Positions 6,001 to 26,196 are shown, counted from the stretch's first letter. The stretch is 50,265 nucleotides of DNA from a virus (IMGVR_UViG_3300050821_001954:1-50265), one strand, 5' to 3'. Numbers and translations: made by a program. The notes: a model not told the origin generated them from the sequence alone.

Positions 6001-6705
6001 AGCGCCGATCGCGGCGGGGTCAAGCATCGCCAGAGGTGCAAGGGTTTGAAATGCCCCGCCAGTGGCGTCGTTGATTCCCTGAATGACGGTATTGCGGTTT
6101 TTGGCAACCTGCTCAGGAGACATCGTTGGCTCTGCAAGTCGCGGCTCGCCAAGACGTGCAGCGGTAACGGGATCAACTGGTCCGGTGGACGTGCCGTACA
6201 GTTTGGCTAGACCCGATGCCGCCTTGATAGGACCGACGATTGGGCCCGCCATGATGTTGCCTATATTCGGAAGCGGCTTCCCCTCCTTGTCGAACTTCTG
6301 CGGTGATACGGCGTCCATGATGCGGGAGTACAGGTTGTCGAGATGGGCCGCGACCCCCGAGATAGGTCCGATGGTCGCACTGGGTTGTGTAGGAACTACA
6401 CTCGGGCGCGGCGGTCCCGCTGGGGGCGGCAGTAGCGACGGCACCTGTCCGGTCGGCAACGTCGGCAGCGGCGTCTTGCCCTGTGCCTGTTCGAGCGTAG
6501 GCCCGGGACCGCTTGGCGTTACATGGGCGCGAGCGGCGGTAGCTTGGGCTTGCGCTGCGGCCAATTCTGGAGCACGGGCAGCTTTACGGATTGCCGCAAC
6601 ATCGGGGTCTTCGTCTTCTGGTTCAGCGACCGCAGTTCCGCCACCGCCTAGCGACCGTGCGGCTTTCCGTATTGCGAGAACATCCTGATCTTCGCCATTC
6701 GCCAC
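1..6705 (-). CDS. Giant DarB-like DNA methyltransferase / SNF2-type helicase (C-terminus outside window)
   Basis: One uninterrupted frame of 2,235 codons runs from a GTG at 6705, three bases after the upstream stop, past base 1. Residues 1 to about 870 are Pro/Glu-rich and low in complexity. A YVGWGGLKQVF motif lies near residue 905. N6-adenine methyltransferase motifs follow: motif I-like ETSAGIGHYVG near 990 and catalytic NVPFG (NPPF-type) at about 1062. A superfamily-2 helicase follows, with VGAGKS (Walker A) near 1678, ADEAH near 1838, FATATP near 1890 and QRNGRGIRQG (motif VI) near 2172. This order matches phage P1 DarB-type anti-restriction proteins, which are packaged and injected to protect phage DNA. 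The position next to internal virion proteins fits an injected protein. That it acts here in anti-restriction is inferred. No in-frame ATG lies close to the chosen start, so GTG is preferred. Confidence 0.88.
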   Translation of the reverse strand, partial: MANGEDQDVLAIRKAARSLGGGGTAVAEPEDEDPDVAAIRKAARAPELAAAQAQATAARAHVTPSGPGPTLEQAQGKTPLPTLPTGQVPSLLPPPAGPPRPSVVPTQPSATIGPISGVAAHLDNLYSRIMDAVSPQKFDKEGKPLPNIGNIMAGPIVGPIKAASGLAKLYGTSTGPVDPVTAARLGEPRLAEPTMSPEQVAKNRNTVIQGINDATGGAFQTLAPLAMLDPAAIGAMPLYGAAADATQKVLTKAGMKPGPAEAVTNLALAFGPGIFHAARIEAPTDPVRDFAIGIMHEAAKDATAANPNFANMHPAGQEAALVDAENRVWAKMMNADKVKQLDFARLMGMDPKRLFDWVQEVKEGEPEAPEAPPAKPTAPPQLPVGPTEEEGPPAPSSVPEKPPAPPSPASQEVEEAPEPESVGPTQTSEEMRANAERQIEESRNRRLAAETEEAPTEDETVQEVRRAVREQPPAEERAEPAVGATVYVNSETKYSGFDPSESVLPAKYLGPEGGRYILQVLDEDGRPAGTRAVVRHEFGLTPTEKPPFDSVGVGPIEKTPPAKKPVTPQLTEGAAGATPFGVPTEPPVAAKPVTDRSITKKLKSVDKELVGRAIDKATTDKNDHMQTLISAMVDKSQKWPYRVSQADRQLLNNYLGLEEGTTATVEKGKVTFEPPAPATAQKPSTEMSRPELIKEAARLLDRHPAFAAKLNDEQLRKVVDRARAVASDKIEITPEGGFSRNMPSAEPTGQTEPEESTIPSEQESEVPADERESRPPGEQATEPTGEEGAGSLEGVQPEAVRGAEEGGDTGEPSGVRGTATQARPTSGPGQRIQPSGGGRTGEPEVRVPPERAGGEREPEPGGAGRRPERGTDASGYDYRITRDDQLGAGGPKQKYADNLAAIRTLRAIEDAGRRATPEEQAVLVRYVGWGGLKQVFEPYHKDWIPEHEELEDLLSPDEWNSARASILNAHYTSEPIIRAHWDAVQRLGFHEGRWLETSAGIGHYVGLMPDELANANVRLTAIELDSLSGRILKQLYQTRDVRIQGFEKLGGPDNFYDLAISNVPFGESPVFDPKYKGTPVANFVIHNYFIAKALDKVRPGGVVSVITSMGTMDAPTNTKVREYFRSKADLVGAIRLPKNTFFKNARTDVTTDMLFFRKRLPGESPSGIKFVNTKDLKVKDEEGNADTLPLNEYYVEHPEMMLGTMGLTGTRYAAGMPELMPDLKRPLDESLPEAINRLSENIMSARVVPASTTHEAVADEIPAHGDTKPNGLKIVDGQVRRRVDNSMKVEEGYPKTAVRVLKSMLRLRDAMNELMVAERNDRPLETLKDLRSRLNRAYDDHVSRYGPLHGRASRDSMYDDPDLPRVLSLENYDSTSGKGTKAAMFSKRVIPGRQQVETAESSKDAMLAVLNEKGFLDFDRMASMTGKSPEEIQNDLQRDGLVFGSPDGTWETKDAYLSGNVRRKLAEAQDAAKVDEKFKDNVKALEAVQPKDLEPGNIRIQIGSPWVPTDDVEDFVRHITGDKRARVAVQHIESQALWTIRTNASTTPAAANEWGVMGRLSPADILEYGLRQVQPLLYVPGSKDPRVVDQDTTAAAREKLENMQEEFRKFMLQDPERGKKLTQEYNQKINAFRDREWDGSHLTFPGMSSEWLSKITKVQRDDIWRGITGKNMGLYERVGAGKSLVMVATGMEWRRLGLAKKIPYVVPNSTAPQFPGQFLDYYPAANILAATKEDFAKEKRKEFVSRIATGDWDAVVIPHSQWKLIGVNEQTLKNFFNEQFEALDSYIEQLRGSEGKKGPTVRDLEKSRAALEARMQKALDQSAKDKQIEFEELGFDALVADEAHAYKSLWFPTRMTRVTGVPRSQSDRALDMYLKTQYVSKLNNNRNVLFATATPLDNTMAEAWNMMRYLDDEHLKEMGMQHFDSWAAQFGVVRESWEVSPQNPTVPRIKARFVKFQNLPGLSTQFRNTGMYHEQSELGIKTPEIAGGRPHLIEIEPSKEQSDYVAHLAALADLPTSQLEAMGENPLTITGKGRKVALDYRMIDPTAKETPGNKLSRVADEMSRVFHETEGTKGAQLGFLDLGTPTTAGFKAYADLRKKLVARGVPEKQVAFIHDYDKPEAKKELFRKVNAGDVRIVLGSTKKLGEGVNVQERLIAMHHIDIPWTPAGIEQRNGRGIRQGNTNPYVHVYYYVVGKTFDAYSWQLIENKTGFQDQLLSGKIQDLEGEDLSARALTA
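5428..5446. repeat. Interspersed palindrome copy 1 (inside DarB-like gene)
   Basis: TTGTGTAGGACCTACACTT. The 7-bp arms GTGTAGG/CCTACAC are perfect around a single A. It lies in the Pro/Glu-rich region of the DarB-like gene and encodes VGPTQ in the minus frame, the same peptide as copy 8. Confidence 0.75.
6385..6403. repeat. Interspersed palindrome copy 2 (inside DarB-like gene)
   Basis: TTGTGTAGGAACTACACTC, with arms GTGTAG/CTACAC around GAA. It lies in a Pro-rich linker of the DarB-like gene and is translated as VVPTQ, in the same reading phase as copy 1. Confidence 0.7.
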
Positions 6706-8687: not shown

Positions 8688-9122
8688 TTAGACAGTCGTT
8701 GTGTAACGGCTGGCCTTGGTAATTCCGTTACGAGCGAAGAACCTTTTCCACATCTTTTCGGCAATCTCAGAGACGTAAATCAGAACTCCGCTTCCGCGCA
8801 ACCCGAGATCCTCGTAATACGACCGCAGGCGGTACACGGCCAACTCTACACCAAGATGGGCAATCTTCAATCCCTCTCGATCTTGCGTTGGTGGCGTGAT
8901 GTGAAAAATGGGAACATCCGGTTCAAGTCGCGTAGCGATGGCACCCATCACGGTGTAACTGTCACCCTCACAGCCAAGAACTGCCCACACTCGCCTGTAA
9001 TAACCGATAACCAGTTCGGTGCCGAATGTTTTTTCGCAATACAGTTGAAGGGCGGCACACAACTTCTCATCCCGCGGAGTGCCATTTTGATTTAGGTCGA
9101 TCGGTACCATTCTAAGGTTCAT
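8688..9122 (-). CDS. Hypothetical protein, possibly GNAT-fold, 144 aa
   Basis: Its start overlaps the stop of the 141-aa membrane protein by ATGA. Features are a predicted N-terminal helix (ALQLYCEKTFG), a run of short strands (VWAVLGCEGDSYTVMGAIAT), a central helix before YYEDLGLRGSGVLIYV, and a C-terminal WKRFFARNGITKASRYTTT segment. That overall shape resembles Gcn5-type acetyltransferases, which often end in an aromatic, position-specific tail. The acetyl-CoA R/QxxGxG/A loop is not clear, so this is a weak suggestion only. Confidence 0.65.
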   Translation of the reverse strand: MNLRMVPIDLNQNGTPRDEKLCAALQLYCEKTFGTELVIGYYRRVWAVLGCEGDSYTVMGAIATRLEPDVPIFHITPPTQDREGLKIAHLGVELAVYRLRSYYEDLGLRGSGVLIYVSEIAEKMWKRFFARNGITKASRYTTTV

Positions 9123-9544
9123 TTAGTTGCTGGCACCTGTGGTACCGATGGCACGAACTTTCGCACGCTGGCGTTCCACACCGTGCCTGCGTTGATCTGC
9201 GAACCGAGTCGCTTATCAATTCCAGCAATCAGATCAGCCTCTAACTGAAACTCGTCTAGCGCCCGTTGCACTGGGTCTCGTTCTGACTCGATCTGCAACA
9301 CGTACTTTTGCACTGCCCCGACTTTGCGAGCTTGCAGATCAACGTTAAGCGCATCCAATTGGTCGTAAGTGGCTAACCATTGTGGACTAGGATCGATACT
9401 CCCCGGTGGTGCTGGAATGGGTACCGTGTGATTTTCTACAGTCTCCGCTTTAGCAACAGACCTAGAGCGTCCATCCAGAACAGCGCCGATAACGGCGCCA
9501 CCAATCAATAGAATGCTGAACAGTATCATCAAGTTCTTCTTCAT
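9119..9544 (-). CDS. Single-span membrane or exported protein, 141 aa
   Basis: An N-terminal signal or anchor MKKNLMILFSILLIGGAVIG is followed by a Pro-rich linker and about 90 residues of charged helices (LDALNVDLQARKVGAVQKYV, DPVQRALDEFQLEADLIAG). The topology suggests a membrane-anchored protein with a soluble helical domain outside the cytoplasm. Spanin i-subunits look similar (N-terminal anchor plus coiled coil), but no o-spanin partner overlaps it. It is the last gene in a run of exported proteins. Function unknown. Confidence 0.7.
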   Translation of the reverse strand: MKKNLMILFSILLIGGAVIGAVLDGRSRSVAKAETVENHTVPIPAPPGSIDPSPQWLATYDQLDALNVDLQARKVGAVQKYVLQIESERDPVQRALDEFQLEADLIAGIDKRLGSQINAGTVWNASVRKFVPSVPQVPATK

Positions 9545-9571
9545 TTGTTCGTGTTCCTCTCTTTCTCTGAT

Positions 9572-10174
9572 TTACTTCTGTACGGCACAGCTCCCCGTGT
9601 TATCGCAAACGGCAAAGAACAGTTCAGGCTGTTTGTTACCCTTCCAGGTGACCGTGCCGCCGCCTATCTTGTTGCCCCTCGCCAGAATCTGCGAGTTGTC
9701 GTAGATGAACCAAAAATCCTTTGCTGTACTGGCATCCACAAAGGATGCGGTCAACGTCTCCTGCGTGCCGATGATATTCAGGGCAACGCTGGTAATGCTC
9801 AACGTCGGCGGATTGGGATTCTGCGGCTCCGTGGCCGACACTTCATTGGATGGCTTGGACTGATTCCCTGTAGTGGACTGCTCATCCGCAACGTAATAGT
9901 AAAGAACTCCCGGCGTAGCGGTAGTGTCGTTATAGGCGCATGTGGACACAGGCGTGGTGCCGTTCAGCGCCGAGGTTCCCACTTCCGCTCCGGAGGTCGT
10001 AGCCCGATAGAAATTAAAGCCCGCTACCGTGACCCCAGCGACCGCCGTTCCCGGGGTACAGCCTAAATTTATAGAGTGCAGCGTTCCGTTGGCTTTCAGT
10101 GTTGGTGCAGTCTGCGCGTGCGCTCCTACGGTAAAGACAAGCAAAACAAAAAGTGCCAAACCATATTTTCTCAT
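9572..10174 (-). CDS. Secreted Fn3/Ig-like protein, 200 aa
   Basis: There is a clear Sec signal peptide (MRKYGLALFVLLVFTVGAHA, cleavage after A-H-A). It is followed by a fibronectin-III-like domain: GFNFYRATTSG, CAYNDTTATPGVLYYYVADE and SKPSNEV have the spacing of Fn3 strands. A second beta domain ends with four clustered Cys residues that could form disulfides outside the cell. The start overlaps the stop of the LuxR-type gene by ATGA. A role in binding host surface polymers is inferred from fold and export only. Confidence 0.75.
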   Translation of the reverse strand: MRKYGLALFVLLVFTVGAHAQTAPTLKANGTLHSINLGCTPGTAVAGVTVAGFNFYRATTSGAEVGTSALNGTTPVSTCAYNDTTATPGVLYYYVADEQSTTGNQSKPSNEVSATEPQNPNPPTLSITSVALNIIGTQETLTASFVDASTAKDFWFIYDNSQILARGNKIGGGTVTWKGNKQPELFFAVCDNTGSCAVQK

Positions 10175-10446
10175 CCGCCTAACTCCCTTCGATTGGTCAG
10201 ATTGAACTTCTTGAGCATTCTTCCAACGTGGAATTTCACAGTACGCTCAGCGATGCCGAGTTCTATCGCGATGACCTTATTCGGCATCCTGATCCGTTCA
10301 AGAACTTGTCGCTGTCTGTCTGTCACCGTAACTCTGGGCATGACACTTGTATTTATTTCGCGCTCAATCTCCTCGATCTTTTGTGGTAGAGCGGCGAGCA
10401 GTGCAATCAGCCGATTCCGGCGCCGAACTAGGTGATCAATACTCAT
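10171..10446 (-). CDS. LuxR/GerE-type helix-turn-helix regulator, 91 aa
   Basis: A basic coiled segment (residues 1-35, IDHLVRRRNRLIALLAALPQ) precedes a complete LuxR C-terminal HTH (about 38-90). The family signature is present: VTDRQRQVLERI, then NKVIAIELGIAERTVKFHVG and MLKKFNLTNRRE. No receiver or autoinducer domain is present, so it resembles short GerE-like DNA-binding proteins. It overlaps both neighbours by ATGA and so is co-translated with the secreted genes. LuxR-type proteins bind roughly 20-bp dyads, which makes it a candidate binder of the 19-bp palindromes in this window (inference). Confidence 0.88.
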   Translation of the reverse strand: MSIDHLVRRRNRLIALLAALPQKIEEIEREINTSVMPRVTVTDRQRQVLERIRMPNKVIAIELGIAERTVKFHVGRMLKKFNLTNRRELGG

Positions 10447-12524
10447 TGTACTACGCTCGCGCCTCCCATTGTCGCCGTGCCGCCGACAGTACCGCTAGGA
10501 CCGCTGCTGCACGATGCCTGCGTGTTCGTATTCTGCACGATGCCGAACGAGGAAATCGCCTCCATTCCGCCGTCGTCGTACATTTGCTCATCGAAGGTCA
10601 ATAAGTTGTTGCATGTGACAGTGAGAGAGGCAGTGCGGGTATAGGGCCCGTATTGGCCCACGCCGCTTGCGGCAAAGTCCACATTGGATGCCAGGGTCGA
10701 ACCTTGCGCCACGAAGTTGACGTTGCTCGCATTGGCTCCCACGACATCTTTAGCAATCGAGTGGAACGTGAGCGTATACGTACCGGCGGGCACAATCCAG
10801 TAAATGTGATTATCCACCTCACTGTTTAGGGAGCCAGTGAAAGCGTGATTCCACAACTTTGCGTCAGTTGCACTGCCGGTGTAATTTCCTGTGTAATCAG
10901 CACAGCAGCCGAGTTGTCCTTGCTGACTGTTCATTCCGATGCCGGCGCCGGACTTCCAAACGTGTCCACCTTGCCCAGTGTCCGTGTAATCGTTGCCAGC
11001 CGCGAAGCTGGGCAAAGCATAGGCCCCTCCGCTGGGCCAAATCCGCAGGATGATACTGTTGGACACACCGGAGTTCGCAGAGCTGGTAACGGTGGCGATG
11101 ATGGTCGATTCGCTCGATGCCGTCGCTGGCGGTGTGTAGAGGCCCGAGGATGACCCGATGCTGCCGACTGCTGAAGATAGCGTCCAGGTTACCGCGGTGT
11201 TGCTGGAGCCGTTGACGACGGCGTTCAGTTGTACCGCTGGAGTCCCAGCCATGATGTCGTAGGCATCTTGCGTCACTCCGACCGTGACACCCAAAAGGTC
11301 CACGTCCGTGCAGGCCGTTCCGCCGCTACTATTGAAGCACACCGTCTCGCGGTTCACAGAGGCTTCCCATGACCCAGAGGTGATCTCAAACGAGGCATCC
11401 GGCACGTACTCAAAATTGGTGGAAGCAACGTTGGCGTTGTTTATCTCGTTGAAGTAGCCGACATCGGCTTCGGACCAAGGAGCGTATTCAATGTTAGTCT
11501 GTCCGTTCGTCCCAATATCAGCAAGGATAAGGCCGTAGTTCTTAAGTTCCGTGAGAATGAGTTGGGCACACGCGGAAAATGTGGATTGGTTGAAAGCGCT
11601 CTTTAGCCGATACCTGCGACCGTAAGGCTGATTACCGCTACTGGCAGCTACGTTCGTCGCAGGCCAGACAAATGTGTTGCCGATATTTCCATTATTTAGT
11701 GTCAATCGCAGAGCGTGATTGATGGCCCCGGTTCCCGCGCCGCTGGCACACGCGGTATCGAACTCTTGCCGCCGCAGTATTAATGGCTGGAGAATCAAAC
11801 CGGCGGCATCAATACCCTGACTCGTCGTTGAGAAATCGGTCGAACTGTATTTCGCGCCCGACTGCGAGTTACAAAGTGAACAACTCTCGTACATCGTTCC
11901 GTTTCCGACCGGATAATAGCCATACTGGTCTTCAAAGTGACCGTTTTGGTAGTTGGCCTTCAAATAGTGGTGGTCTGTTGTAGTGTGCATCGGAACTTCC
12001 GTGCGTGTCTGGTACCACCCAGACTCGGCTAACCCGCTCAGAAAAGTATTGGACGATGGGTTGAAGTATGTACCGTTGCTGGTGCCGGGAGCATAGTAAA
12101 AAACCATGCTATCCGTGGATGTGGAGTTATTCACATAGTTTATGGGGAAGGAAGGAAGGATGTTCAGATTCCAAGCGAAGCCGCCGTTGAAAGTCGTGCC
12201 CGTCAGGCCGGATGTAGCGTTGTCGATGCGCGTATTGAAGATATTGTTGTTCGGATACAGTTGCCAGCCTGCGAGCTGCTGTTTGGCATTGACTGTGGAC
12301 GGAGCTGTGTAGACTCCACCTACTGTGATGCTGCCCAGGCCGGATGTCGCCCCGCCCGTGGCGTTGGTCCCCGACACTGACCACCCAGTTCCACCTGTGC
12401 AGGTGCCCGTGCAAGTAAAGGTCTGTGTCCCGCCCTGGTTGATTGCTGGATTGAGCGGAGATATCGTCTGCGCAGATAATGAACCGCTAAGGGCAAAAAA
12501 CAGTCCGATGGCTATGCGCTTCAC
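10443..12524 (-). CDS. Large secreted multidomain Ig-like protein, 693 aa
   Basis: A signal peptide (MKRIAIGLFFALSGSLSA) is followed by a bacterial Ig-like domain containing TISPLNPAINQGGTQTFTC and GSITVGGVYTAPST. Next comes a unique Asn/Tyr-rich region (about 80-400) with TTDHHYLKANYQNGHFEDQY. A second Ig-like repeat (about 405-490) contains VTWTLSSAVGSIGSSSGLYT. A C-terminal beta-rich domain (about 500-660) resembles carbohydrate-binding modules in its aromatic and Gly pattern (GTYTLTFHSIAKDV). The GxIxxxGxYTxP pattern is common in secreted proteins of Acidobacteriota. It could be a tail-spike-like adhesin or a secreted glycan-binding protein. No catalytic residues could be assigned. Confidence 0.8.
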   Translation of the reverse strand: MKRIAIGLFFALSGSLSAQTISPLNPAINQGGTQTFTCTGTCTGGTGWSVSGTNATGGATSGLGSITVGGVYTAPSTVNAKQQLAGWQLYPNNNIFNTRIDNATSGLTGTTFNGGFAWNLNILPSFPINYVNNSTSTDSMVFYYAPGTSNGTYFNPSSNTFLSGLAESGWYQTRTEVPMHTTTDHHYLKANYQNGHFEDQYGYYPVGNGTMYESCSLCNSQSGAKYSSTDFSTTSQGIDAAGLILQPLILRRQEFDTACASGAGTGAINHALRLTLNNGNIGNTFVWPATNVAASSGNQPYGRRYRLKSAFNQSTFSACAQLILTELKNYGLILADIGTNGQTNIEYAPWSEADVGYFNEINNANVASTNFEYVPDASFEITSGSWEASVNRETVCFNSSGGTACTDVDLLGVTVGVTQDAYDIMAGTPAVQLNAVVNGSSNTAVTWTLSSAVGSIGSSSGLYTPPATASSESTIIATVTSSANSGVSNSIILRIWPSGGAYALPSFAAGNDYTDTGQGGHVWKSGAGIGMNSQQGQLGCCADYTGNYTGSATDAKLWNHAFTGSLNSEVDNHIYWIVPAGTYTLTFHSIAKDVVGANASNVNFVAQGSTLASNVDFAASGVGQYGPYTRTASLTVTCNNLLTFDEQMYDDGGMEAISSFGIVQNTNTQASCSSGPSGTVGGTATMGGASVVQ

Positions 12525-13288
12525 AGCCCACTTTTACCGCCTAGTCCAGATTTACCGCCCATACCGCCGCCGGCGACACTAGGTGTTTGCGTAGCGTTTT
12601 TAAGCGCAACCGTGAAAATCGTCCATTGGCCGGTCGTATTCGTCGTTGCGGTCCCGGTATAGGTTCCCGTCGACGTGACGTTCTGGTCCTCCAGAAACCC
12701 GGAATGCCCTGTGCCGCCGTTCTGCTTCTCAATGGTGTAACTCGTTCCGGCTGTGAAGGTCGCGCCGCTGACTGGCTGAAACCCCACAGCTACGAGGGTG
12801 TCTACAGCCGTCCCTGTTACGCAGTTTCCAGTCGCCAAACTTGTAGAGTTACCAGACCCACTACATTCCGTATCCACGACAGCCGATGTCGCCATATTGT
12901 TGTACTCAGCGCTGAAGCCATTGGATGCTACGCTGGCCGACAGCGTGAATACAACGCTCATGCATCCGCCCGCAGTCAGCGCCGTATAAATCGCAATAGA
13001 ATTGCCGGTGCCGCGGAATGGAGAGCCAGGGACCGCCGTAAAGCTGTCGCTGCAACCGTCGCTTATGGTTGTGACTGTAGATGTTGCGTCGGCCCAACCG
13101 CAAGCTATGACGATCGTGTTGTTCGCTGTCGTATTTGAGGGGAACCCTGTGGAGCAATCAGTCCCAGAACCGTTTCCACTTTCATTGCTTTGAACGGGAG
13201 GCGCGCCGCCAGTAGCATGGACCGGAGCGCACCACGCCAGCGTGGCGAGCAATAGAACAAACGGTAGGAGCAATCGTCGTTGTGTCAT
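12521..13288 (-). CDS. Secreted jelly-roll-like protein with Gly tail, 255 aa
   Basis: The start is placed at ATG 13288 (MTQRRLLLPFVLLLATLAWC) because this gives a proper signal peptide and avoids overlapping the upstream stop at 13297. An upstream in-frame ATG at 13318 exists. The mature part is Ser/Thr/Gly-rich and beta-predicted, with six or more Cys residues (IVIACGWADATSTVTTISDG, GGCMSVVFTLS) and a closing VALKNATQ strand. It ends in a Gly/Lys/Ser tail (GGGMGGKSGLGGKSGL). The pattern of spaced Cys and 'TVALK' ending is seen in phage and soil-bacterial surface proteins of unknown role. Confidence 0.72.
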   Translation of the reverse strand: MTQRRLLLPFVLLLATLAWCAPVHATGGAPPVQSNESGNGSGTDCSTGFPSNTTANNTIVIACGWADATSTVTTISDGCSDSFTAVPGSPFRGTGNSIAIYTALTAGGCMSVVFTLSASVASNGFSAEYNNMATSAVVDTECSGSGNSTSLATGNCVTGTAVDTLVAVGFQPVSGATFTAGTSYTIEKQNGGTGHSGFLEDQNVTSTGTYTGTATTNTTGQWTIFTVALKNATQTPSVAGGGMGGKSGLGGKSGL

Positions 13289-13296
13289 TGGAGACT

Positions 13297-16200
13297 CTAC
13301 TGGTACCACACCGAACAATAACTCCCGCGCTTCACGATGAAGTTGTCCGTCCCGGTCGTCGTGGCTACATAAACACCAAAGACGCCGGGCGTAGCGTTGG
13401 ATGGCTGCTCAACCGTTCCATCCAGTTCCGCCTTCCATATCGTCGTGATCGCACTGGGCGTGAACGTGACCACGGCAGTAGGCGTCGTAGAGGCCAAGGC
13501 TGTAAGCGTTCCGGTTACTAAAACGCTCGTTGACGTAAACGCGGTTCCGCTGGCGTTCGCCTGCGTTGGCGCGGTTCCGGTTATCCCGATTCCGAAACTG
13601 TCGGATACAGCCGATGTTCCCTGGTCGTATATGATGCCGCAGTGAAAGCTGATGACCACAGCCTTACTGACCGGCAGGGTTGTACTGAGGCCGGTAATCA
13701 ACTGGAGCGTAGTGCTCGTCGAATCGGTGAAATCGGAGGCGACGGTGAGAAGCACCGGAACGGGATGGTAGCTCTCTGTGCAAATAGCTGAAGCGCAACC
13801 GTCGGTCTGCTTGTAAGAGGCAATGTTTGGAGCGGCACCTGGCCTCGTAATCGTGTATGCCGTCACGGCGGTAGGCGCTTGGTCGATGATGCTGTTCGCC
13901 GGAATGTTCGTGTTGGCGGTCGTGTTCGTCGCACCCTGAGCCAAGTAGACAAACCCCGCGTTGGCTCCGGCGACCTGAACGACGCCGGCGAGACCTGCGG
14001 TTCCAGATCCGCCCGTGCCCGCCGCGCCGGGCGTCAGAACGATGCTTCCGCCGTTGGCGTTGGTGCCCGTTCCGGCGCCTGCCCCTCCTGGGCCAGCCGT
14101 CAGATTGAGCGCGCCGCCCGCACCACCCGGAGCGTTACCGCTTGCACCGCCTCCGGTTCCAGTCGTCAGCGTGACCGTGCCGCCAGCGCCTCCGGTCCCT
14201 GCGGTCGCACCGGTTGCCGCGCCACCGTTACCAGCTACAAGCGAAAGGAGCGAGCCAACACCCGCAGTACCCGTTGCGGTTGAGTTGCCGCCACCCGTCA
14301 AACCAGTGATAGAAAAAAGCGTTCCCGCCGACAAGCCCGGGCTAGTAGCGGAGGACGCGATAGCCGTGCCCTGCACCAGCATCTCGCCAGTCACACCCGC
14401 CGTGCCTGAGCCGCCAATACCGGCTTTGCCGAGCGTAAAGACCACGTTGCCGCCGTTGGCGTTCGCTCCGGTGCCCAGCGACGCGCCGCCGTTGCCCGTC
14501 GTCAGATTGAGCGCACCGCCAGCGCCTCCGACCGCGTTCGTGCCCGTGCCTGCGCCGCCAGTGCCTGAGTTAAGAGAAACGACCGAACCGACGCCCCCTG
14601 TGCCCGCCGCATTGGACGAAGCACCGCCCGCGATACCGACTACGTTGAATAGTGTCCCGGTAGCGATCCCCGCCGTACCGGCCACGGACGCTGGAGCCGT
14701 ACTGGTGATTAGGAATTGACCATTGACGCCGGGGGTTCCTGTCGTTCCTCCCACGCCAAGCGTCACGCTGAAATTTCCGCCGTTGCCGCTGGTGCCCGTC
14801 GCTCCGGCATTGCCACCGTTTCCGGTTATTCCGAAGTGTCCCCCGCCGTTGCCGCCGTTATTGGTTGTCGTGCCACCGCCCGCACCTCCGTTGCCTTCCG
14901 TGATTGTCCACGAACCACCCGCCCCGCCGTTTCCGGTCGTGGCACCGCCAGCCGACCCATTGCCACCCAGTAGCACGTAACCCGCGCCGATGCTGCCGGC
15001 ATTGGAAGCTCCGGCCAAACCACCAGCAGCGGCGGCGGTGACGTTGATGATGTTGGGGGCGGCAGCGTTCGCTGGACCATTGGCTCCCTGTGTGAGTTGT
15101 AGGGCTATGGAGGTCGAGGTCGTCAGCGTCGTAATCTGATGTTCCACGGCGCCCGCCGTGGTCGCAGCCGTCGTCTCTCCTGTGGTCAGGCAGGTTGTGC
15201 CGCTGGTCAGTGCGCAGTTGAAGATGAGCGGATTGTTCCCATCTGCAAAAGTAGCTATAGCTCCCGTAGGACTGACGACTTGGTTGAGCGGAATATTCGG
15301 AAGATCGCCAGTCGCTATAGCTCGGAAGGCTGGGGCGGTAGCTGTGGCGAACAGTGCATGGGTCGTAGTGGTGTCCGCCGCTGTGGACACAGGCGCTCCG
15401 CCAGCGCCGCCGCCGTAAACCACTCCGTAATGAGTCAAAGCGGCCGAGGATGCCCAACTCGTAGCGGTGTTGAAATATGGAATGCCGCCACTGGTTCCGG
15501 CTATGGTCAACGTGACCGCTCCGGTGGACGCGCTGTTGGTAATCACCGTCCCATCACCGCTAACACTTGTCACCGCACCGGAGGCGCCATTCCCAGTCTG
15601 CCCCTGCATCTGCCAGTTGGCACCGTCAAACTCAAGCAGGGTGTCCTGTCCCGCTAGGAAATCGTTGGCCGCAATAGCCGTTCCACCGCCTTGCTTCTTT
15701 ACCGGAGCCGCGGAAGTGCTATTCACATTGAGCGTCATCGCTCCGGTGCTGGCTACGTCAGCTTGGAACAGAATCACATCGCCATCGGCGGGCGTGAAGG
15801 AAGGCGACGTGGTACAGGTATAAGTGGTTCCCGAGCCCGATGCAGCCAAACAGGTCAACGGTGTTGATTCGTTGTGCGCCGTTGGATTTGTCGAGATTGC
15901 TCCGGCCGCCGAGATAGAGATGGGGAGCGTTCCGCTTAGACCGGAACTGCCAACATTCCCAATCGGGATCGCGTTCACAAAGGAGAGTGTGTTGACGTTC
16001 GCGGCGTTCGTTCCCAGCAAGTAACCCGTAGCGGATACGGCCGGCAGGATGAATTGGTAGTTTGTGATCCCGCTGGCTGGGCAGGATATTTGAATGTTCG
16101 CCGCTACTAGAGTCGGCGCGGTTCCCGCCGAACACTGGAAATAGCCGGCACCGGAGCCAGTTGCCGTGTAGCTCGCGCCGGTAGCGTTTCCAGAGACATC

Positions 16201-17766
16201 CACCTTAAACTGAGTCGAATTACCGACGCGTAGGTCCATGAGCACTGACGCGGCAGCGCTGCTCGTATTGGTGACGTTCTCAAGGATGCCTTCGCCGGTT
16301 AACCCAGAATTATTCCAGGTGCTTTCAAGTTGCAGAAGCGGCGTGGCAACAGTATTCGTGATGCTTCCCTGGGCAATCTCTAGAGGAGTCGCTGTCGAAT
16401 TGGTCGCCGTGCTGATCGAATGAACAGCTTGATTCGCTAGCCCATTTGTCAGTGTGCCGTTGGTCGCGGCAGATGTTTCTCCGAAGGCAATGCCGTCCTG
16501 AGCGTCTGTAGTCTGCGCCCAATTCCAGGTTTGAGGATTGTTACCGTTGGCGATGGTGTTGGCACCCGTAGCAACAGTGATCGCCGACAACGCTGTCGCT
16601 CCGCCTCCGCCGCAGTTTGTCGAGCCAGAGTCAGACAGCAGCACATTTCCGCTAGATACAGTGGCCTGAATACAATGCCCCGTAGTCGGCGCGGAAGCGA
16701 AGGGTGCCACAATAGCGTCGGCTGCGTTGGCCCAGACGTGTATGTTGTTGGCGGTCGTGTCTAGGCCGAGTGTACTGTTAACGTTCGCTGCGAAACCAAC
16801 TCCTTCGGGGACCTCCATCGTCGCGGATGTGAAGTCCTGTAGTCCAGCGGTGTAGACGTTCGTTTGATCAGTGTAGACCGTCGTTGCGAGTAATACTCCT
16901 TTCGCTGGCACTCCGGTCGCACTGGCTTGCAATCCACCACCGAGGACTACGGCGTTATTGGTGAGCGCGGCAGCACTGGTCACGCACGTCGCGCAGGCGA
17001 TGGTTCCGGTCGTGGTGATCGTTCCGCCGGTGATCGGAGAGGTCGTGGCAATACTGGTGACGCCAGCACCACTTCCGGTCGCAGCGGCCGTAATTCTTCC
17101 TTTGGCGTCTACCGTAATGTTCGCATTTGTGAAGGAGCCCACATTCGCGTTGACAGTAGCCAGCGTGGTAACACAGGAACTACCGGGTGTCGTTATGTCT
17201 CCGGTCAGTGTCGGCAATGCTCCGCAAGGTAAGCCGGTCGCATTGGTCAACACTAGGGCAGAAGGAGTACCAAGTGCCGGGGCCACCAAGGTTGGCGACG
17301 TCCCGAAAACTAGTGTCCCGGTTCCATTTTCATCTGTGACTGCGGCTGCTACTTGGGACGAAGTAAGAGAACCAGCCGCCAAGGCATTCGCGGTTACGGT
17401 TCCCGTTCCCGTGGGGCCAAGGGATGCGCCGGTTCCGACCAGCATCGCTGCCTGTGTATTTGTGGCGCTTGTCAAGGCGCTGAATGCGGTGGCCGCCGTA
17501 GCGGAAGCGGTTATCGTCAGCACTCCTCCAGAATTAGAGCAGGTAGTGTTCGTGCCGCAGTTGAAGATCGAAGCGACTCCTATTCCGCTTCCACCGTTCT
17601 GAAAAGTCAGGCCACCACTTGCGGCCGTGTCCAAGGTTCCATTTGTGGTTACGAAATGCCAAGTTCCAGTTGGCACATCGAATTGAACGATCCCAGGAGC
17701 TCTACTTTGTCCGTAAAGTGGCACCGTTGCCATCAGAAGCAATACGGTCAAAAATAGTTTTCGCAT
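13297..17766 (-). CDS. Giant tail-fibre-like protein with signal peptide, 1,489 aa
   Basis: It begins with a Sec-type signal (MRKLFLTVLLLMATVPLYGQ), unusual for a virion fibre. Residues about 60-340 hold fibre-like repeats such as ALGTPSALVLTNATGLP, known from long tail fibres. The central part is Thr/Ser/Gly-rich beta-helix-like sequence. From about residue 900 to 1260 there is a PGRS-like Gly/Ala region with at least two diverged tandem units of about 110-130 aa, each ending in a G-x-V-Q-V/A-G-type strand. The C-terminal 170 residues form a separate beta domain ending KRGSYCSVWYQ, suited to receptor binding or trimerisation. A strong Shine-Dalgarno (AAGGAAGGAG) and a candidate promoter precede it. 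Confidence 0.85.
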   Translation of the reverse strand: MRKLFLTVLLLMATVPLYGQSRAPGIVQFDVPTGTWHFVTTNGTLDTAASGGLTFQNGGSGIGVASIFNCGTNTTCSNSGGVLTITASATAATAFSALTSATNTQAAMLVGTGASLGPTGTGTVTANALAAGSLTSSQVAAAVTDENGTGTLVFGTSPTLVAPALGTPSALVLTNATGLPCGALPTLTGDITTPGSSCVTTLATVNANVGSFTNANITVDAKGRITAAATGSGAGVTSIATTSPITGGTITTTGTIACATCVTSAAALTNNAVVLGGGLQASATGVPAKGVLLATTVYTDQTNVYTAGLQDFTSATMEVPEGVGFAANVNSTLGLDTTANNIHVWANAADAIVAPFASAPTTGHCIQATVSSGNVLLSDSGSTNCGGGGATALSAITVATGANTIANGNNPQTWNWAQTTDAQDGIAFGETSAATNGTLTNGLANQAVHSISTATNSTATPLEIAQGSITNTVATPLLQLESTWNNSGLTGEGILENVTNTSSAAASVLMDLRVGNSTQFKVDVSGNATGASYTATGSGAGYFQCSAGTAPTLVAANIQISCPASGITNYQFILPAVSATGYLLGTNAANVNTLSFVNAIPIGNVGSSGLSGTLPISISAAGAISTNPTAHNESTPLTCLAASGSGTTYTCTTSPSFTPADGDVILFQADVASTGAMTLNVNSTSAAPVKKQGGGTAIAANDFLAGQDTLLEFDGANWQMQGQTGNGASGAVTSVSGDGTVITNSASTGAVTLTIAGTSGGIPYFNTATSWASSAALTHYGVVYGGGAGGAPVSTAADTTTTHALFATATAPAFRAIATGDLPNIPLNQVVSPTGAIATFADGNNPLIFNCALTSGTTCLTTGETTAATTAGAVEHQITTLTTSTSIALQLTQGANGPANAAAPNIINVTAAAAGGLAGASNAGSIGAGYVLLGGNGSAGGATTGNGGAGGSWTITEGNGGAGGGTTTNNGGNGGGHFGITGNGGNAGATGTSGNGGNFSVTLGVGGTTGTPGVNGQFLITSTAPASVAGTAGIATGTLFNVVGIAGGASSNAAGTGGVGSVVSLNSGTGGAGTGTNAVGGAGGALNLTTGNGGASLGTGANANGGNVVFTLGKAGIGGSGTAGVTGEMLVQGTAIASSATSPGLSAGTLFSITGLTGGGNSTATGTAGVGSLLSLVAGNGGAATGATAGTGGAGGTVTLTTGTGGGASGNAPGGAGGALNLTAGPGGAGAGTGTNANGGSIVLTPGAAGTGGSGTAGLAGVVQVAGANAGFVYLAQGATNTTANTNIPANSIIDQAPTAVTAYTITRPGAAPNIASYKQTDGCASAICTESYHPVPVLLTVASDFTDSTSTTLQLITGLSTTLPVSKAVVISFHCGIIYDQGTSAVSDSFGIGITGTAPTQANASGTAFTSTSVLVTGTLTALASTTPTAVVTFTPSAITTIWKAELDGTVEQPSNATPGVFGVYVATTTGTDNFIVKRGSYCSVWYQ

Positions 17767-17803
17767 GACTCCTTCCTTGGCCTTACGCCATCTTTCGTGC
17801 GCT

Positions 17804-17831
17804 ACTCTAGCCAGAACTGGCCACTTGTCAA
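17804..17831 (-). promoter_or_regulatory. Candidate sigma-70 promoter for fibre operon
   Basis: On the minus strand a perfect -35 TTGACA (17831-17826) is followed after 16 bp by TAGAGT (17809-17804, four of six consensus bases). The inferred start lies about 30 bases before the ATG at 17766, leaving room for the AAGGAAGGAG ribosome site. It occupies one of the few real gaps in the structural region. Confidence 0.45.
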
Positions 17832-17833
17832 CG

Positions 17834-18883
17834 TCAGTTCGACGGCATCAGCGTAAAGACCATCGTTGGTACAAATGGTGTCGTATTGACGATTTGCACC
17901 GCGTCGGCTCCGTTAGAAGTCTCGAATTGCAACTTTATAGTGTGCGATGCGCCATCGCCGGCAATTACCCAGTTAAGCGCGAATGGAGTAGGTAGGGCGA
18001 TTCCTCCACCGTAAGACTCCGTGCCGACAATCTGTGTAGCGGGAACTGAGTCGTACAGATAGACGCGCACGGTTGCAATGCCCGTCGCTGATAGTATTTC
18101 TCCAGAACAGGCGATACCCAAATTCCAGCCAGTCGGAATCGTCACGATGTATTGCAGATTGACGGTGTCTACATCGACGACGCTTGTATCACCAGAATGG
18201 CTATAATTCCCTCCGCTTGGCCCCTTTTTAAGTGTGCGAGTGTTGGTCTTATAGTCAACGAGCGTGCTGGTCGTGCTGGGAATCGTCTCGATGTGCGTTC
18301 CGTCCACGCTGATTCCGCCCGCAAAAGACTCCAAAGCAGCATGTGACTCAGTTCCAGTGAAGGCGTTGGCGCCGTTCAGTAGGGGCACGTTGTTTGCCGC
18401 TATTCCAGCATCTCCGGCAGTCGTTGCTGTCACGTATTCCACCAAATGCCCCGGCGTGCCAGAGTTCACGGGAGGTGGCGGACTTCCACTCAGGGGAGGT
18501 TGTGCATCGAGATTGAAGGAGGCTCCGGTGATAATGAATCCAAATTGCGTAACCGGTTGCCCGTTATACCAATACTCCGCAGTGTAATAGGTGTTCGTCG
18601 GAGCGATCACGTCGTTCCCACATATCGTCTGGCTCACTACGCCACCAGCGACAGGGAAAGAATCCACAACCGAAGGCACTATCGCTCCCGCTGCACACAC
18701 TCCCGTTCCGGTCCCGTTAAGGCGAGGAACATTACCGCCAAGATTCTGAAGGCGGAAGCGGATAAATACTTGGTTCGTAGCAACGCCGCCAGCGCTGATG
18801 ACGTGGCCGGTGACGGTCGTCTGCGCATGTGTGTAGGAGCTACACAAAAACACCAACAGTATTGCTAGAAGAGCTTTTCTCAT
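17834..18883 (-). CDS. Secreted tail-fibre-like protein, 349 aa
   Basis: The signal peptide MRKALLAILLVFLCSSYTHA is encoded partly by palindrome copy 4. The first 110 residues form a beta domain with an early TVTGHVISAGGVATNQVFIR strand resembling Fn3/CNA-type folds. A Pro-rich linker (PPLSGSPPPPVNSGTPGHLV) leads to a fibre-shaft-like segment (NVPLLNGANAFTGTESH) and a C-terminal beta sandwich. Fibre-shaft motifs plus a signal peptide make it a second member of the exported-fibre group. Its start overlaps the stop of the next gene by ATGA. The receptor is unknown. Confidence 0.78.
   Translation of the reverse strand: MRKALLAILLVFLCSSYTHAQTTVTGHVISAGGVATNQVFIRFRLQNLGGNVPRLNGTGTGVCAAGAIVPSVVDSFPVAGGVVSQTICGNDVIAPTNTYYTAEYWYNGQPVTQFGFIITGASFNLDAQPPLSGSPPPPVNSGTPGHLVEYVTATTAGDAGIAANNVPLLNGANAFTGTESHAALESFAGGISVDGTHIETIPSTTSTLVDYKTNTRTLKKGPSGGNYSHSGDTSVVDVDTVNLQYIVTIPTGWNLGIACSGEILSATGIATVRVYLYDSVPATQIVGTESYGGGIALPTPFALNWVIAGDGASHTIKLQFETSNGADAVQIVNTTPFVPTMVFTLMPSN
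18829..18847. repeat. Interspersed palindrome copy 4 (inside signal peptide)
   Basis: GTGTGTAGGAGCTACACAA, with arms TGTGTAG/CTACACA around GAG. It lies within codons for the signal peptide C-region (CSSYTH) of the 349-aa fibre-like gene, in a reading phase different from copies 1, 2, 7 and 8. Confidence 0.7.
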
Positions 18884-19272
18884 GTGTGGCCGACCCCCTG
18901 AACCCGGATACTTTCCAACCCTTGCGTGTAGCAGGACACCCAGAATGAGATAAAGCCGCTGTAGCCAGAAGGAACTGGAAGTTCAGCAAATAGGTTGTTC
19001 GGACTGTTCACGTCAAACACTCTATTGTTGTCCCCGCCGCCCGCTACGTTGTCCCACCGATAAATGTAGTAGCCGAGTATTCCGCTAAGGTTCGCCGGTG
19101 GTGCCCATGCCACGTTGAAATGGGTACTGTCGAATACGACCGAGACCCCGCGCGGCGGCTGAGGTCGGCGCCGCGTGCTGATCGTTCTCGTTTCAACGGC
19201 TAGGTTCTCTCTCATAAACCGCTGTAGAAGCGGCTGGGCTCGGGACATATCCTGTGGGAGTTGATAAAACAC
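18880..19272 (-). CDS. Fn3-like structural protein, 130 aa
   Basis: The GTG start shares its G with the TAG stop of the preceding 819-aa gene. The N-terminal 35 residues are helical and charged (DMSRAQPLLQRFMRENLAVE). The rest is one fibronectin-III-like domain: PQPPRGVSVVFDSTHFNVAW, GYYIYRW, NLFAELPVPSGYSGFISFWV. No signal peptide is present, unlike the downstream fibre-like proteins, so it is probably a virion component such as a tail-tip or decoration protein. Confidence 0.72.
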   Translation of the reverse strand: MFYQLPQDMSRAQPLLQRFMRENLAVETRTISTRRRPQPPRGVSVVFDSTHFNVAWAPPANLSGILGYYIYRWDNVAGGGDNNRVFDVNSPNNLFAELPVPSGYSGFISFWVSCYTQGLESIRVQGVGHT

Positions 19273-21731
19273 TATCTGCCCTCCGGTCGTTCGGCTCCGA
19301 GCTTCAAATCGACCATGTTGACGACGCCGTATGTCGGAAGGGGTAAGAAAACTGGATCCGTCAGTGCGAATGACCCGTCGGCAGGATGCGAAGTCAGTTG
19401 CAAGCGCGAATACAGCCAGCGCCCTTCTCCAAACATTTTAGCTGCCCACCGTGAAGGCTCGCCCGGAATCTGCTCAATCTCTGACTGGGTGAACTGTGCC
19501 AGCGTGTTGTTGTAGTCCTTTGTCCATGACACTTGTAGGTTCCCATCACCTTGCCATTCCAGTTCTACGAGTCCAGGCCGATTTGGCCCGAGGCCAACAA
19601 GTCCAATGTAGTCCCCTGAATACACCGTTCCGTTGTCGGAACTGCTGCCATCTTCAAGCTGCGCAATAACTCCCTCTTTCGCTCCCGCCCACAAGCGCAT
19701 CCTGCCGGAAGTGTCGTAGACGTTGAATCGCGGCGTGTATCCCGCGCCGGCGAAGGTGTTGACCGTCACACCGTTGTATTGGAAGTTGTACCCCTGTCCG
19801 TGCGGGCTGCGCTCGTCCTGCAATCGGAAGTCGTGGACTACGATCACCACATTGCCGTTCGCATCGAAGCCTCGCACCACTACTTCGTCCGTCAGATTGA
19901 TCGGGTCGCGCAGATAGGCCAACTCGACCATGTTGGAACTGGCCCGAGAAATCTTGCCAAGCAACGCAGCTTCGTACTCGTCGCTAACCGAAATCACGCC
20001 ATCGCTCATAAATGTGCAGAGTTCCCCTTCTGCGCTGAACCAGAAGGGACCATAGGGCGTCTCGACAAAGGCACGCTGTCCAGGGCACCCGCCTGGATAC
20101 GGACCACGCCAAGGATTTGCCCCTTGCTGCTGAAGGAATTGCGACCAAATGAACAGCGCGGTGCGGCTGTAGAACCATCCTTCGAGGCGGTACGCATGGA
20201 TCGCCGTCGGTTCCTCGCCGCTCGGCAGTATCTCCGTCTGATCCGGAGGCCAGCTTTCTTCCGGGTTCCCGACGTAGTTCGCGTTGGTGATGTCCGATAT
20301 GTCGTTCGAGTAGTACATCGTCGGACTGCCCGACAATGCCCCGAAGACGCGCGTGCCTACGCGAGCGAACTTGTCCAGCATCGGCGGAACGTAGTTTCGG
20401 GAAGGCATTTGCGAAAGCACATCGACCGGCCCAATCAGCAGCGTGGCCTGAGTCGCATTGTTCGCCGCAACGATGTGATTCCCGTTCCCGTCGGTCAGCC
20501 AGTAGGGTACTTGACCGCCATCGTTGGTTCGTCCGAATGCCTTTACCCACTCCGGATTGATCGCAGACAGGTTCGGCAGGCTCGTAAGAGACAGGGCGAC
20601 TGTGCTGTAACTGGTGTTGGTCAGCAAGCCGCCGATCGGAATGGCGTTCCCCATGTGCTGCGTGATCGGATTGTAGTAAGCCATCCAGAACTGATAGCCG
20701 GAAAGTTGCGTCAGCGTCCAATTACCGGCGGCGTTTGTCGTGAAGTTGACCGCAACCGGAAGTGGAGAACCTTGGCTATGAATTGAGACGTTTACTGCGT
20801 CCAAGCTAAGAATCACACCAGAACCGTTGTGACCAGATACCCACACCACCACATTAAAACTTGGATCGTTCAGATTCGTAGGGGTCCAACCTGAATCTCC
20901 CCATAAGTCACTGATGGAACCAAATATCAAGGGCACATCAGATGTCGAGCTAAATAGTTGTTGCTTGGGACTGCCTACGGCTACCCCCGCTCTGTACAGT
21001 TGCACATTCACATAAAGCTGGGTTCCCGGCGGAGATCCGCTTCCTTGGACATGTCCTGTGAGTGTCACCGTAATTCCCTGTGGCGTACTGGCTGGGACCG
21101 CTAAGGAGAATCCACTGAGCAAATTGTCCGATGTTCCATGCGCAATGTTCGAACCGGCTGTTGCGTAGACTCCATCCGGAGCGCCAAGAGCATTCCCAAT
21201 GTTATTCCATAGATTCCCACCGTTGGCGGCGGTCGAATTGGAGTTGGCATACGCAGTCGTGTCGTAAACAACTACCGATTCACCATTCGGATTCGGAGCG
21301 CGAATCCCCACCGGTCGAAGCGTAACTCCATCCCACTGCTTGAAGTCTGTCCCGTTCGATATGAACACTGAATTGCGGGCCCGGAAGTGTCCCCAGGGAT
21401 TCGAGTTTGACAGCGTGGCTATCTGCGTCGATACGCCGCTGCCCATGTTGAATTGATAGAGACCAGCGAGTTTCCCGTACAGAGCGAACTGAGGCCCGAG
21501 ATAGGAAGCAGAAAATTGTTCGTAGTACAGGAGCGAGTGGATCGTCGTCGCGCCGGCGCTGTCGTTCGTCGCCGGCATGGGCACCGAGTACCCGGAACGA
21601 AGTCGGAGTTGACCGCTGGCTATCGGCGAGAAGTTCAGGCAGCGGATTGCTCGGTTGATGGGAAAGTTTGCGGGGTTAGACCTGCTATCGACCCCGCCGA
21701 AGCTGAAGTTCTCTTCCTTTTTGACTGGCAT
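19272..21731 (-). CDS. Large tail-tube-like structural protein (gp12-type candidate), 819 aa
   Basis: It starts MPVKKEENFSFGGVDSRSNP, a Gly/Asn-rich opening with 'RCLNFSPIASGQLRLRSGY', resembling tail tubular protein B/gp12-like proteins (NFxxGVDxRxxP, then LRxRxGY). It is rich in beta repeats with evenly spaced aromatic-Asn motifs (QFALYGKLAGLYQFNMGSG; ARNSVFISNGTDFKQWDG), consistent with a propeller. It directly follows the adaptor-like gene, the gp11-gp12 order of T7-like podoviruses. Residues about 150-330 may be an inserted carbohydrate-binding-like domain. The family call is by architecture and synteny. Confidence 0.75.
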   Translation of the reverse strand: MPVKKEENFSFGGVDSRSNPANFPINRAIRCLNFSPIASGQLRLRSGYSVPMPATNDSAGATTIHSLLYYEQFSASYLGPQFALYGKLAGLYQFNMGSGVSTQIATLSNSNPWGHFRARNSVFISNGTDFKQWDGVTLRPVGIRAPNPNGESVVVYDTTAYANSNSTAANGGNLWNNIGNALGAPDGVYATAGSNIAHGTSDNLLSGFSLAVPASTPQGITVTLTGHVQGSGSPPGTQLYVNVQLYRAGVAVGSPKQQLFSSTSDVPLIFGSISDLWGDSGWTPTNLNDPSFNVVVWVSGHNGSGVILSLDAVNVSIHSQGSPLPVAVNFTTNAAGNWTLTQLSGYQFWMAYYNPITQHMGNAIPIGGLLTNTSYSTVALSLTSLPNLSAINPEWVKAFGRTNDGGQVPYWLTDGNGNHIVAANNATQATLLIGPVDVLSQMPSRNYVPPMLDKFARVGTRVFGALSGSPTMYYSNDISDITNANYVGNPEESWPPDQTEILPSGEEPTAIHAYRLEGWFYSRTALFIWSQFLQQQGANPWRGPYPGGCPGQRAFVETPYGPFWFSAEGELCTFMSDGVISVSDEYEAALLGKISRASSNMVELAYLRDPINLTDEVVVRGFDANGNVVIVVHDFRLQDERSPHGQGYNFQYNGVTVNTFAGAGYTPRFNVYDTSGRMRLWAGAKEGVIAQLEDGSSSDNGTVYSGDYIGLVGLGPNRPGLVELEWQGDGNLQVSWTKDYNNTLAQFTQSEIEQIPGEPSRWAAKMFGEGRWLYSRLQLTSHPADGSFALTDPVFLPLPTYGVVNMVDLKLGAERPEGR

Positions 21732-24978: not shown

Positions 24979-26196
24979 CTACTGGTACGTGTTTACGCCA
25001 TACATTCTTGCATGACGTTTCTCAAACCTGACCACCCAAGCCCCTTCAGTAAGATACTCGTCACGGTACAAATCTGCCCCGTCTTTTACCACATCGATCA
25101 GCAGTTGCGTGTCGCGGTTCTCGCCGTTTCCGACAAGAGGAGCGAACTCGATGCTGTCGATGTCCAGGGCGTAAGCCTCAGAGCCCCAGCCAGCGCCGCT
25201 CGACGTGATCGGCGAGTTCTGGAGGTTGAGGTCGCGGGTGACCATCAGGTCGCCGTGGTTGGTTGCGTAGCGAGTCAACTTGACCCCGTACACATCATCC
25301 CCAGGCGCGAGGCGCAGTTTGTTGTTGGCGTATGTGTCCAGCGCGGATATTACGGTCGGGGCGGCGACGAACAGCTTTTCGCTACCCTCGTAATATTGGC
25401 TGAACGCCGTCTGGATGAAGGTTAGGAACCCGCCCTCAGTCAGTGTGGTGTTGGCGTTGTAGACGTTCGTGACCAACCGGTTCTTGAGGCCCATCGTGGT
25501 TCGGACGGTTCCCGGCAGAGCCAGGTTCTCCGAAGGATGGGACCACAGGCCGGCCGATTCGATGTCTCGGCGATGCTCTTCGAGTATCTTCCGGCGCTGG
25601 AATAGCCGGTCATTCGACGGCCCGAAGAGTGCTTGCGCCACTTCCGACTTCGTGACGCTTACCGGACGGCGGAAAATCTGCGTGTAGGACACCAGCACAG
25701 ACTTCGCCGTTGTTCGCGGAGTTCCGAACGCCGCGCCTTCAGGAAACGCAGGGGCGAGGATACGCAGGTCAGCAGTTGCGCCGATGGTGTTGGCACCGGA
25801 ACCGCCGATACCGCGGGTGACAGTCAACGTGCCGCCGGCGATGGCAGTGACCTGGACGACTTCCTCGACCACGGTGGCCGCATACGTGCCCGGTATCGCT
25901 ACCAGGTCGTTGACGGCAAAGATGGTCGGGTCAACTACGAAAACGCCAGTGGCGACGGAACTGTAGTTCGTGGTGCCGTTCGAGACTTGGCCCCACACTT
26001 GGAGGTAATCGTCTTCGATCCACTCGACGCGGGCTGCGTTGGTTGGTTTCTTGCGGTTGCCGATCTTTGTAACCAGCGTGAGGATCGGGGTGAGACTCGG
26101 GTTGAGGAGTACGTCGTCCTCTCCGATAAATTGTCGCTTCTGAACCGTTTCTACATACGCCTGGTCAATGGACCGGGCAACAGTGATAGCGGCCAT
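24979..26196 (-). CDS. Major capsid protein, SU10/DUF5309-like, 405 aa
   Basis: Length and features fit the SU10-type HK97-fold capsid family: an N-terminal AYVETVQKRQFIGEDDVLLN region, an inserted beta module with FAVNDLVAIPG, EEVVQVTAIAGGTLTVTRGI and PEGAAFGTPRT, then the conserved SYTQIFRRPVSVTKSEVAQA. The A-domain follows with GLKNRLVTNV, GGFLTFIQTAF and LFVAAPTVISALDTYANNKL. The C-terminal part (KDGADLYRDEYLTEGAWVVR) closes the P/A strands. The neighbours (scaffold-like upstream, connector genes downstream) support the call. Confidence 0.9.
   Translation of the reverse strand: MAAITVARSIDQAYVETVQKRQFIGEDDVLLNPSLTPILTLVTKIGNRKKPTNAARVEWIEDDYLQVWGQVSNGTTNYSSVATGVFVVDPTIFAVNDLVAIPGTYAATVVEEVVQVTAIAGGTLTVTRGIGGSGANTIGATADLRILAPAFPEGAAFGTPRTTAKSVLVSYTQIFRRPVSVTKSEVAQALFGPSNDRLFQRRKILEEHRRDIESAGLWSHPSENLALPGTVRTTMGLKNRLVTNVYNANTTLTEGGFLTFIQTAFSQYYEGSEKLFVAAPTVISALDTYANNKLRLAPGDDVYGVKLTRYATNHGDLMVTRDLNLQNSPITSSGAGWGSEAYALDIDSIEFAPLVGNGENRDTQLLIDVVKDGADLYRDEYLTEGAWVVRFEKRHARMYGVNTYQ

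Follow-up and report, generated by a model that had tools for sequence, protein, structure and literature searches.

Phage tail fibres ordinarily assemble in the cytoplasm, and the fibres and tailspikes of T7, P22 and crAss001 are modular, combining a conserved N-terminus with a variable C-terminus. Among exported proteins, Bdellovibrio encodes MAT, a phage-like fibre with a beta-rich domain of ~130 amino acids (aa) after the signal (PMC10769870); Pantoea secretes WceF, a tailspike-fold enzyme of exopolysaccharide (PMC7949094); and lambda encodes the signal-bearing protein Lom from a gene among its tail genes (PMC12309495). Here we describe a cassette of fibre-like and immunoglobulin (Ig)-like proteins with Sec-type signal peptides in a soil phage, the IMG/VR virus record IMGVR_UViG_3300050821_001954. 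IMG/VR contigs are fragments, and the whole of this one, 50,265 bases, is called the window below. As in T7, P22 and crAss001 the fibres are modular and encoded among structural genes; unlike theirs, which are signal-free, those of the window carry secretion signals. MAT, likened here by its published description, is the closest exported analogue, with the difference that its gene belongs to a predatory bacterium and the present genes to phages. WceF likewise is an exported tailspike-like protein in an exopolysaccharide context, but it is a bacterial gene product with a Tat signal. Lom is a single outer-membrane beta-barrel, whereas the window encodes several soluble fibre-type proteins. The reading we favour, to which we would give a little under an even chance, is that the cassette supplies exported fibre or spike and glycan-associated proteins, and that the fibres are held in the periplasm and join virions at lysis.

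Export signals

A preliminary description of this locus had named proteins of 200, 693, 255, 1,489, 349 and 141 aa, and these lengths match the open reading frames (ORFs) we found, all on the minus strand (Table 1). The first five had been credited with cleavable signal peptides, which is borne out by a home-made rule, by reading the sequences by eye and by conservation in homologues. The rule, which looks for a positive n-region, an uncharged hydrophobic core (h-region) and an AXA-like site, flagged 6/6 of the cassette ORFs named and 0/40 of the window's remaining minus-strand ORFs. Since it fires on 1.8% of shuffled N-terminal 45-mers, five consecutive signals would arise by chance with a probability of about 0.018^5. 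By eye, the 349-, 1489-, 255-, 693- and 200-aa proteins have textbook cleavable Sec signals, and several of the mature N-termini are glutamine (Q); in the 349-aa protein the signal spans residues 1-20 (MRKALLAILLVFLCSSYTHA, followed by Q). Signals are kept in all four members of the 349-aa N-terminal family and in both phage members of the 693-aa family. Export of the cassette proteins via Sec is strongly supported by these sequence features. The anchor claimed for the 141-aa protein corresponds to a hydrophobic segment at its N-terminus, which the rule also flagged; the protein may be anchored, and the segment may instead be a signal.

Related and unrelated phages

Six related viral contigs were found by a capsid search, the long ones being G003, G005 and G006 (G3, G5 and G6). 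Their structural block is conserved and their fibre region variable, and each encodes signal-bearing proteins, in blocks that follow the tail genes or lie between terminase and portal. The 1489-255-693 run of the window parallels a 536-239-667 run in G5, placed there between terminase and portal; the 1489/536 and 693/667 pairs are homologous by blastp and the 255/239 pair is matched by position only. Comparable runs of signal-bearing fibre, beta-rich and Ig-type proteins, recognised in some cases by sequence and in others by position, are 958-337 in G6 and 633-485-1054-218 in G3. Among fibre-like proteins the rule flagged 5/5 in the window, 5/6 in G5, 3/3 in G6 and 7/9 in G3, and the unflagged exceptions are, by eye, internal-virion-type proteins (with MCGG-type starts) and small head-region proteins, together with a 1346-aa ORF of G3 taken up in the Discussion. 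The more distant capsid relatives G163, L023 and L111 have no signal-bearing tail cassette of this type, and the major capsid protein (MCP) profile found no match in genome_contigs. The G5 cassette also encodes a signal-bearing glycosyl-hydrolase-type protein (L010, 9843-10883; Glyco_hydro_cc, E=4e-7).

The signal-bearing fibre anomaly is broader than the preliminary description knew, as unrelated phages show it too, and one of these has been cultured. In Tunturi_1 (PP887698), a cultured Acidobacteriota podovirus, five signal-bearing proteins follow the tail gene, and one of them is the annotated tail spike; Tunturi_2 (PP885685) encodes homologues of the five. Both resemble the window as podoviruses with consecutive signal-bearing fibre or spike genes after a tail gene, but their cassette has no blastp similarity to that of the window. 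The signal-bearing fibre and spike proteins of Tunturi_1 (L114, 10371-23028) contain many cysteines, up to 32. In Tunturi_1 5/6 fibre-like proteins were flagged, against 0/8 in Tunturi_3, which is also a podovirus and has the same host strain, and 0/3 in the siphovirus Tunturi_4, and the fibre-like proteins of both the latter phages are signal-free. A further 3/5 were flagged in G405, a phage unrelated to that of the window by a negative MCP profile. Its 454-aa signal-bearing knob protein is encoded immediately upstream of a gene read by eye as portal-like, and a signal-bearing protein of ~1,740 aa combines a pectate-lyase-type domain with weak PHROG tail-fibre matches. Applied to the tail and structural proteins of T7, P22 and crAss001, the rule found no signal, its sole flag being a lysis-type protein of crAss001; Roseobacter phage CRP-810 likewise has signal-free tail fibres. 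Signal peptides are not mentioned in the Tunturi isolation paper (PMC11924767), and a search of open-access PMC papers turned up no account of signal-bearing fibre cassettes, which is not proof of novelty.

Fibre-type proteins and their cysteines

The 349-aa protein shares its first ~140 aa, and with them the signal, with proteins of 1165 aa in G5, 1209 aa in G6 and 542 aa in G3, and the C-termini all differ. The 1489-aa protein is 64% G/S/T/N/A and ends in a knob of ~230 aa, which is 60% identical to the 536-aa protein of G5 and 70% identical to the 454-aa protein of G405. The cassette thus shows the conserved N-terminal domain and exchangeable C-terminal modules of tail fibres, and like tail-fibre genes it is encoded beside tail genes, downstream of a nozzle-type gene in the window and between terminase and portal in G5; it departs from them in its secretion signals. 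For the 349- and 1489-aa proteins the term fibre-like stands on composition, modular mosaicism and position, and profile searches gave no recognisable fibre or spike domain for the window proteins. The AlphaFold2 model of the 349-aa protein was of low confidence (predicted local distance difference test score, 47). Its post-signal A2 domain matched only the three known relatives among viral contigs and nothing relevant in a PDB profile search. In 396 Acidobacteriota genomes two marginal A2 matches (E about 9e-4), in contexts that do not look like phage, were discarded, as was a single marginal match of the knob profile with an internal stop. The window tail protein, signal-bearing fibre and 693-aa protein found no match in the phage collection; a first pattern search with the 819-aa tail protein also gave none.

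Cysteine (Cys) counts are even in 20/24 mature signal-bearing proteins that contain Cys, compared with 54/101 other proteins (Fisher p=0.006, an optimistic value, as the phages share ancestry), and Cys density is 1.7% in the former and 1.1% in the latter. A Cys pair of the N-terminal domain, VCIFYQGQQFRC, is conserved in G3, G5 and G6, and both partners have gone together from the 349-aa protein of the window. The mature 200-aa protein has four Cys and the mature 141-aa protein none. Because the counts are mostly even and the residues paired, disulfide formation after export, in the periplasm, is supported by the sequences.

The 693-aa protein and its cellular family

The 693-aa protein consists of an Ig domain, a conserved core of ~310 aa, a Big_2-like Ig domain and a malectin/CBM-like C-terminus, the last assigned by eye. 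Its AlphaFold2 model is of moderate confidence and usable for residues ~20-500. The Big_2-type domain (residues 413-500) matched 7r3t, the Big_2-CBM56 domains of a beta-1,3-glucanase, with Z 11.9 and a root mean square deviation of 1.4 over 78 residues, its closest match; model and alignment place the further Ig near residues 18-80. The fold search was dominated by Ig and cadherin matches, and the missing match for the core carries no weight. The label Ig-like in the preliminary description thus applies to this protein, and weakly to the 255-aa protein, whose TSP_Ig-like match (E=0.008) lies below the cut-off.

The core matched no Pfam family, and we confirmed 253 cellular loci that encode it, mostly of secreted type and many in Acidobacteriota. 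One row of the A5 alignment used in this search was a consensus-like probe, which served only for choosing patterns; the matches themselves were verified by a tblastn search with the sequence of the window. A signal is present in 64/74 of the cellular relatives with a complete 5' end, and two of the best relatives, L051 and L024, also share the layout of signal and N-terminal Ig. The invariant residues D239, G266, H270, R273, R306, Y330 and D336 are all present in the window protein. The best three relatives adjoin polysaccharide genes, read by eye as NodB-type deacetylase, glycosyltransferase or flippase-type. This large secreted family (L024-L103), which has no Pfam entry and in which residues D, H, R and Y are invariant, is widespread in Acidobacteriota and Chloroflexi and is possibly an unrecognised polysaccharide-active enzyme.

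Gene layout and remaining proteins

The main genes of the record lie on the minus strand, and the terminase/portal region and tail genes are syntenic with those of the relatives; in view of the capsid gene and these syntenic relatives, we rejected host contamination of the contig. In the order 349, 1489, 255, 693, 91, 200 and 141 aa, the cassette is set between the tail genes and a block of 144, 181, 383 and 2,234 aa. Neighbouring cassette genes mostly overlap or abut, an arrangement suggestive of translational coupling. The gene for the 130-aa protein shares 4 bases with that for the 349-aa protein and adjoins the nozzle-type gene in G5, G2 and G3 too; its product is a candidate adaptor joining tail and fibre. 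The 91-aa gene, of helix-turn-helix (HTH) type, was absent from the preliminary description, and its location within the secreted cassette would suit a regulator of it.

Table 1. Coordinates of the cassette genes and neighbouring features in the window
Feature	Position	Strand	Match or remark
141-aa protein, N-terminal hydrophobic anchor/signal	9119..9544	-	
200-aa signal-bearing protein	9572..10174	-	
91-aa LuxR/GerE-type HTH protein, signal-free, within cassette	10171..10446	-	PF00196 E=1.5e-13
693-aa signal-bearing protein	10443..12524	-	
255-aa signal-bearing beta-sandwich-type protein	12521..13288	-	internal ATG start
1489-aa signal-bearing fibre-like protein with C-terminal knob	13297..17766	-	
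349-aa signal-bearing fibre-type protein: signal, ~110-aa beta-rich N-terminal domain, linker, beta-rich C-terminal domain	17834..18883	-	
130-aa fn3-like protein, signal-free	18880..19272	-	fn3 E=0.022, sub-threshold
819-aa tail protein (nozzle/stabilisation-type), signal-free	19272..21731	-	48-49% identity to relatives; function from position only; no PHROG match
Major capsid protein, used as search probe	24979..26196	-	phrog_1328 E=3e-19

The 255-aa protein has a Gly-rich C-terminus, GGKSGLGGKSGL, and its slot is taken by other signal-bearing beta-rich proteins in G5, G6 and G3. A GGKxG-type Gly-rich motif is common to beta-rich secreted proteins of three phages (this C-terminus; L010, 5395-6114; L124, 1-1062). 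The 200-aa protein is Fn3/Ig-like by eye; an NCBIfam match of one stretch to CbhB was sub-threshold and ignored, as were profile matches to HutZ and nicotine blue oxidoreductase. Profile searches assigned the 141-aa protein to no family at significance. Elsewhere the record contains a DarB-like polyvalent protein of 2,234 aa (1-6705), with methyltransferase and helicase parts, that runs off the record end, and a tRNA-like gene at 27774-27851 with an odd four-base anticodon, caat (ARAGORN).

Discussion

On the reading we favour, the fibre or tailspike-type and glycan-associated proteins are made as Sec precursors in a host that is most likely an Acidobacteriota bacterium. Their export by the host translocon and cleavage by signal peptidase I are strongly supported by sequence. 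The exported proteins would then fold in the periplasm, with disulfides, which the Cys pairing supports. The 349- and 1489-aa proteins would form the receptor-binding apparatus of the phage, waiting in the periplasm until the holin opens the inner membrane, when their conserved mature N-terminal domains may bind the tails of virions assembled in the cytoplasm. For the 255-, 693- and 200-aa proteins, the cellular relatives of the 693-aa protein lead us to infer that a role outside the cell, in binding or modifying the exopolysaccharide of the host, is more likely. Virion loading is argued for mainly by the near-absence of signal-free fibre candidates in these phages: either they export their receptor-binding proteins, or they lack any of the usual kind. 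Addition to virions after lysis, one of the fates raised in the preliminary description, would fit best for the fibre-type genes, which are the near-sole fibre or spike candidates and combine conserved mature N-terminal domains with swapped knobs. The wider version, that fibres and tailspikes exported by Sec and disulfide-bonded in the periplasm are loaded only during lysis and have evolved or spread among unrelated Acidobacteriota phages, we regard as possible and somewhat more doubtful.

Several points weigh against the favoured reading. The signal calls come from a home-made caller; the flag on the 536-aa protein of G5 is a false hit, its signal being readable only upstream of the first standard start codon, and that of a 1346-aa ORF in G3 was seen by eye only, at an internal start. 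The presence of cassette proteins in virions is read from the genes, we know of no mechanism for bringing periplasmic fibres to virions, and dilution at lysis would disfavour loading. The 693-aa core has cellular relatives and none viral outside this phage group, and need not be a virion part. The host assignment is indirect, with no close phage relative in genome_contigs or the 396 Acidobacteriota genomes.

It is also conceivable, if unlikely, that all the cassette proteins leave the cell before lysis and act on the host matrix, loosening, cleaving or binding it, which would help progeny to escape or to get to the next cell, and that none of them is stably built into the virion. The 253 mostly secreted relatives of the 693-aa core, the best of them beside polysaccharide genes, the resemblance of its Big_2 domain to that of a beta-1,3-glucanase and the glycosyl-hydrolase-type protein in the G5 cassette would all suit such a role; however, it would leave the phages without an evident receptor-binding protein, and the exchangeable knobs on conserved N-terminal domains resemble virion fibres. 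Attachment of host cells or substrates, which the preliminary description had also proposed, would be possible for the 693-aa protein, given that its core family is secreted and beside exopolysaccharide genes.

More improbable is a coat of exported fibres on the infected cell, masking receptors (superinfection exclusion) or tethering cells like the MAT fibres of Bdellovibrio. A signal, a conserved beta-rich domain of ~110-130 aa and a variable fibre reproduce the published MAT architecture (PMC10769870), an analogy that keeps surface display open, and knobs common to unrelated phages could block one receptor. However, ~10 kb, in a record of 50 kb, is a lot of sequence for exclusion, and an outer-membrane secretion route would be required. 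A scan of the signal-bearing cassette proteins, with the 141-aa protein outside it, found neither a lipobox nor the cell-wall motif LPXTG, nor a convincing membrane helix at the C-terminus, and the proposal of receptor masking is weakened because no surface anchor was found. We give least weight, and very little, to the N-termini not serving secretion, or to export being incidental, with the fibres acting from the cytoplasm. Cytoplasmic assembly is the rule for tail fibres, and export is here deduced from genes; yet divergent homologues and unrelated phages keep the signals, with AXA cleavage motifs followed by Q and paired Cys, and cellular relatives of the same arrangement carry signals too.

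The question can be tested directly, because Tunturi_1 is cultured. Signal-bearing fibre genes in soil viromes may be misannotated as bacterial or auxiliary. If true, exported fibres would give these phages a second assembly compartment and access to disulfide chemistry, and would imply that loading comes as a late step or else that phages attack biofilm polymers with a secreted arm.
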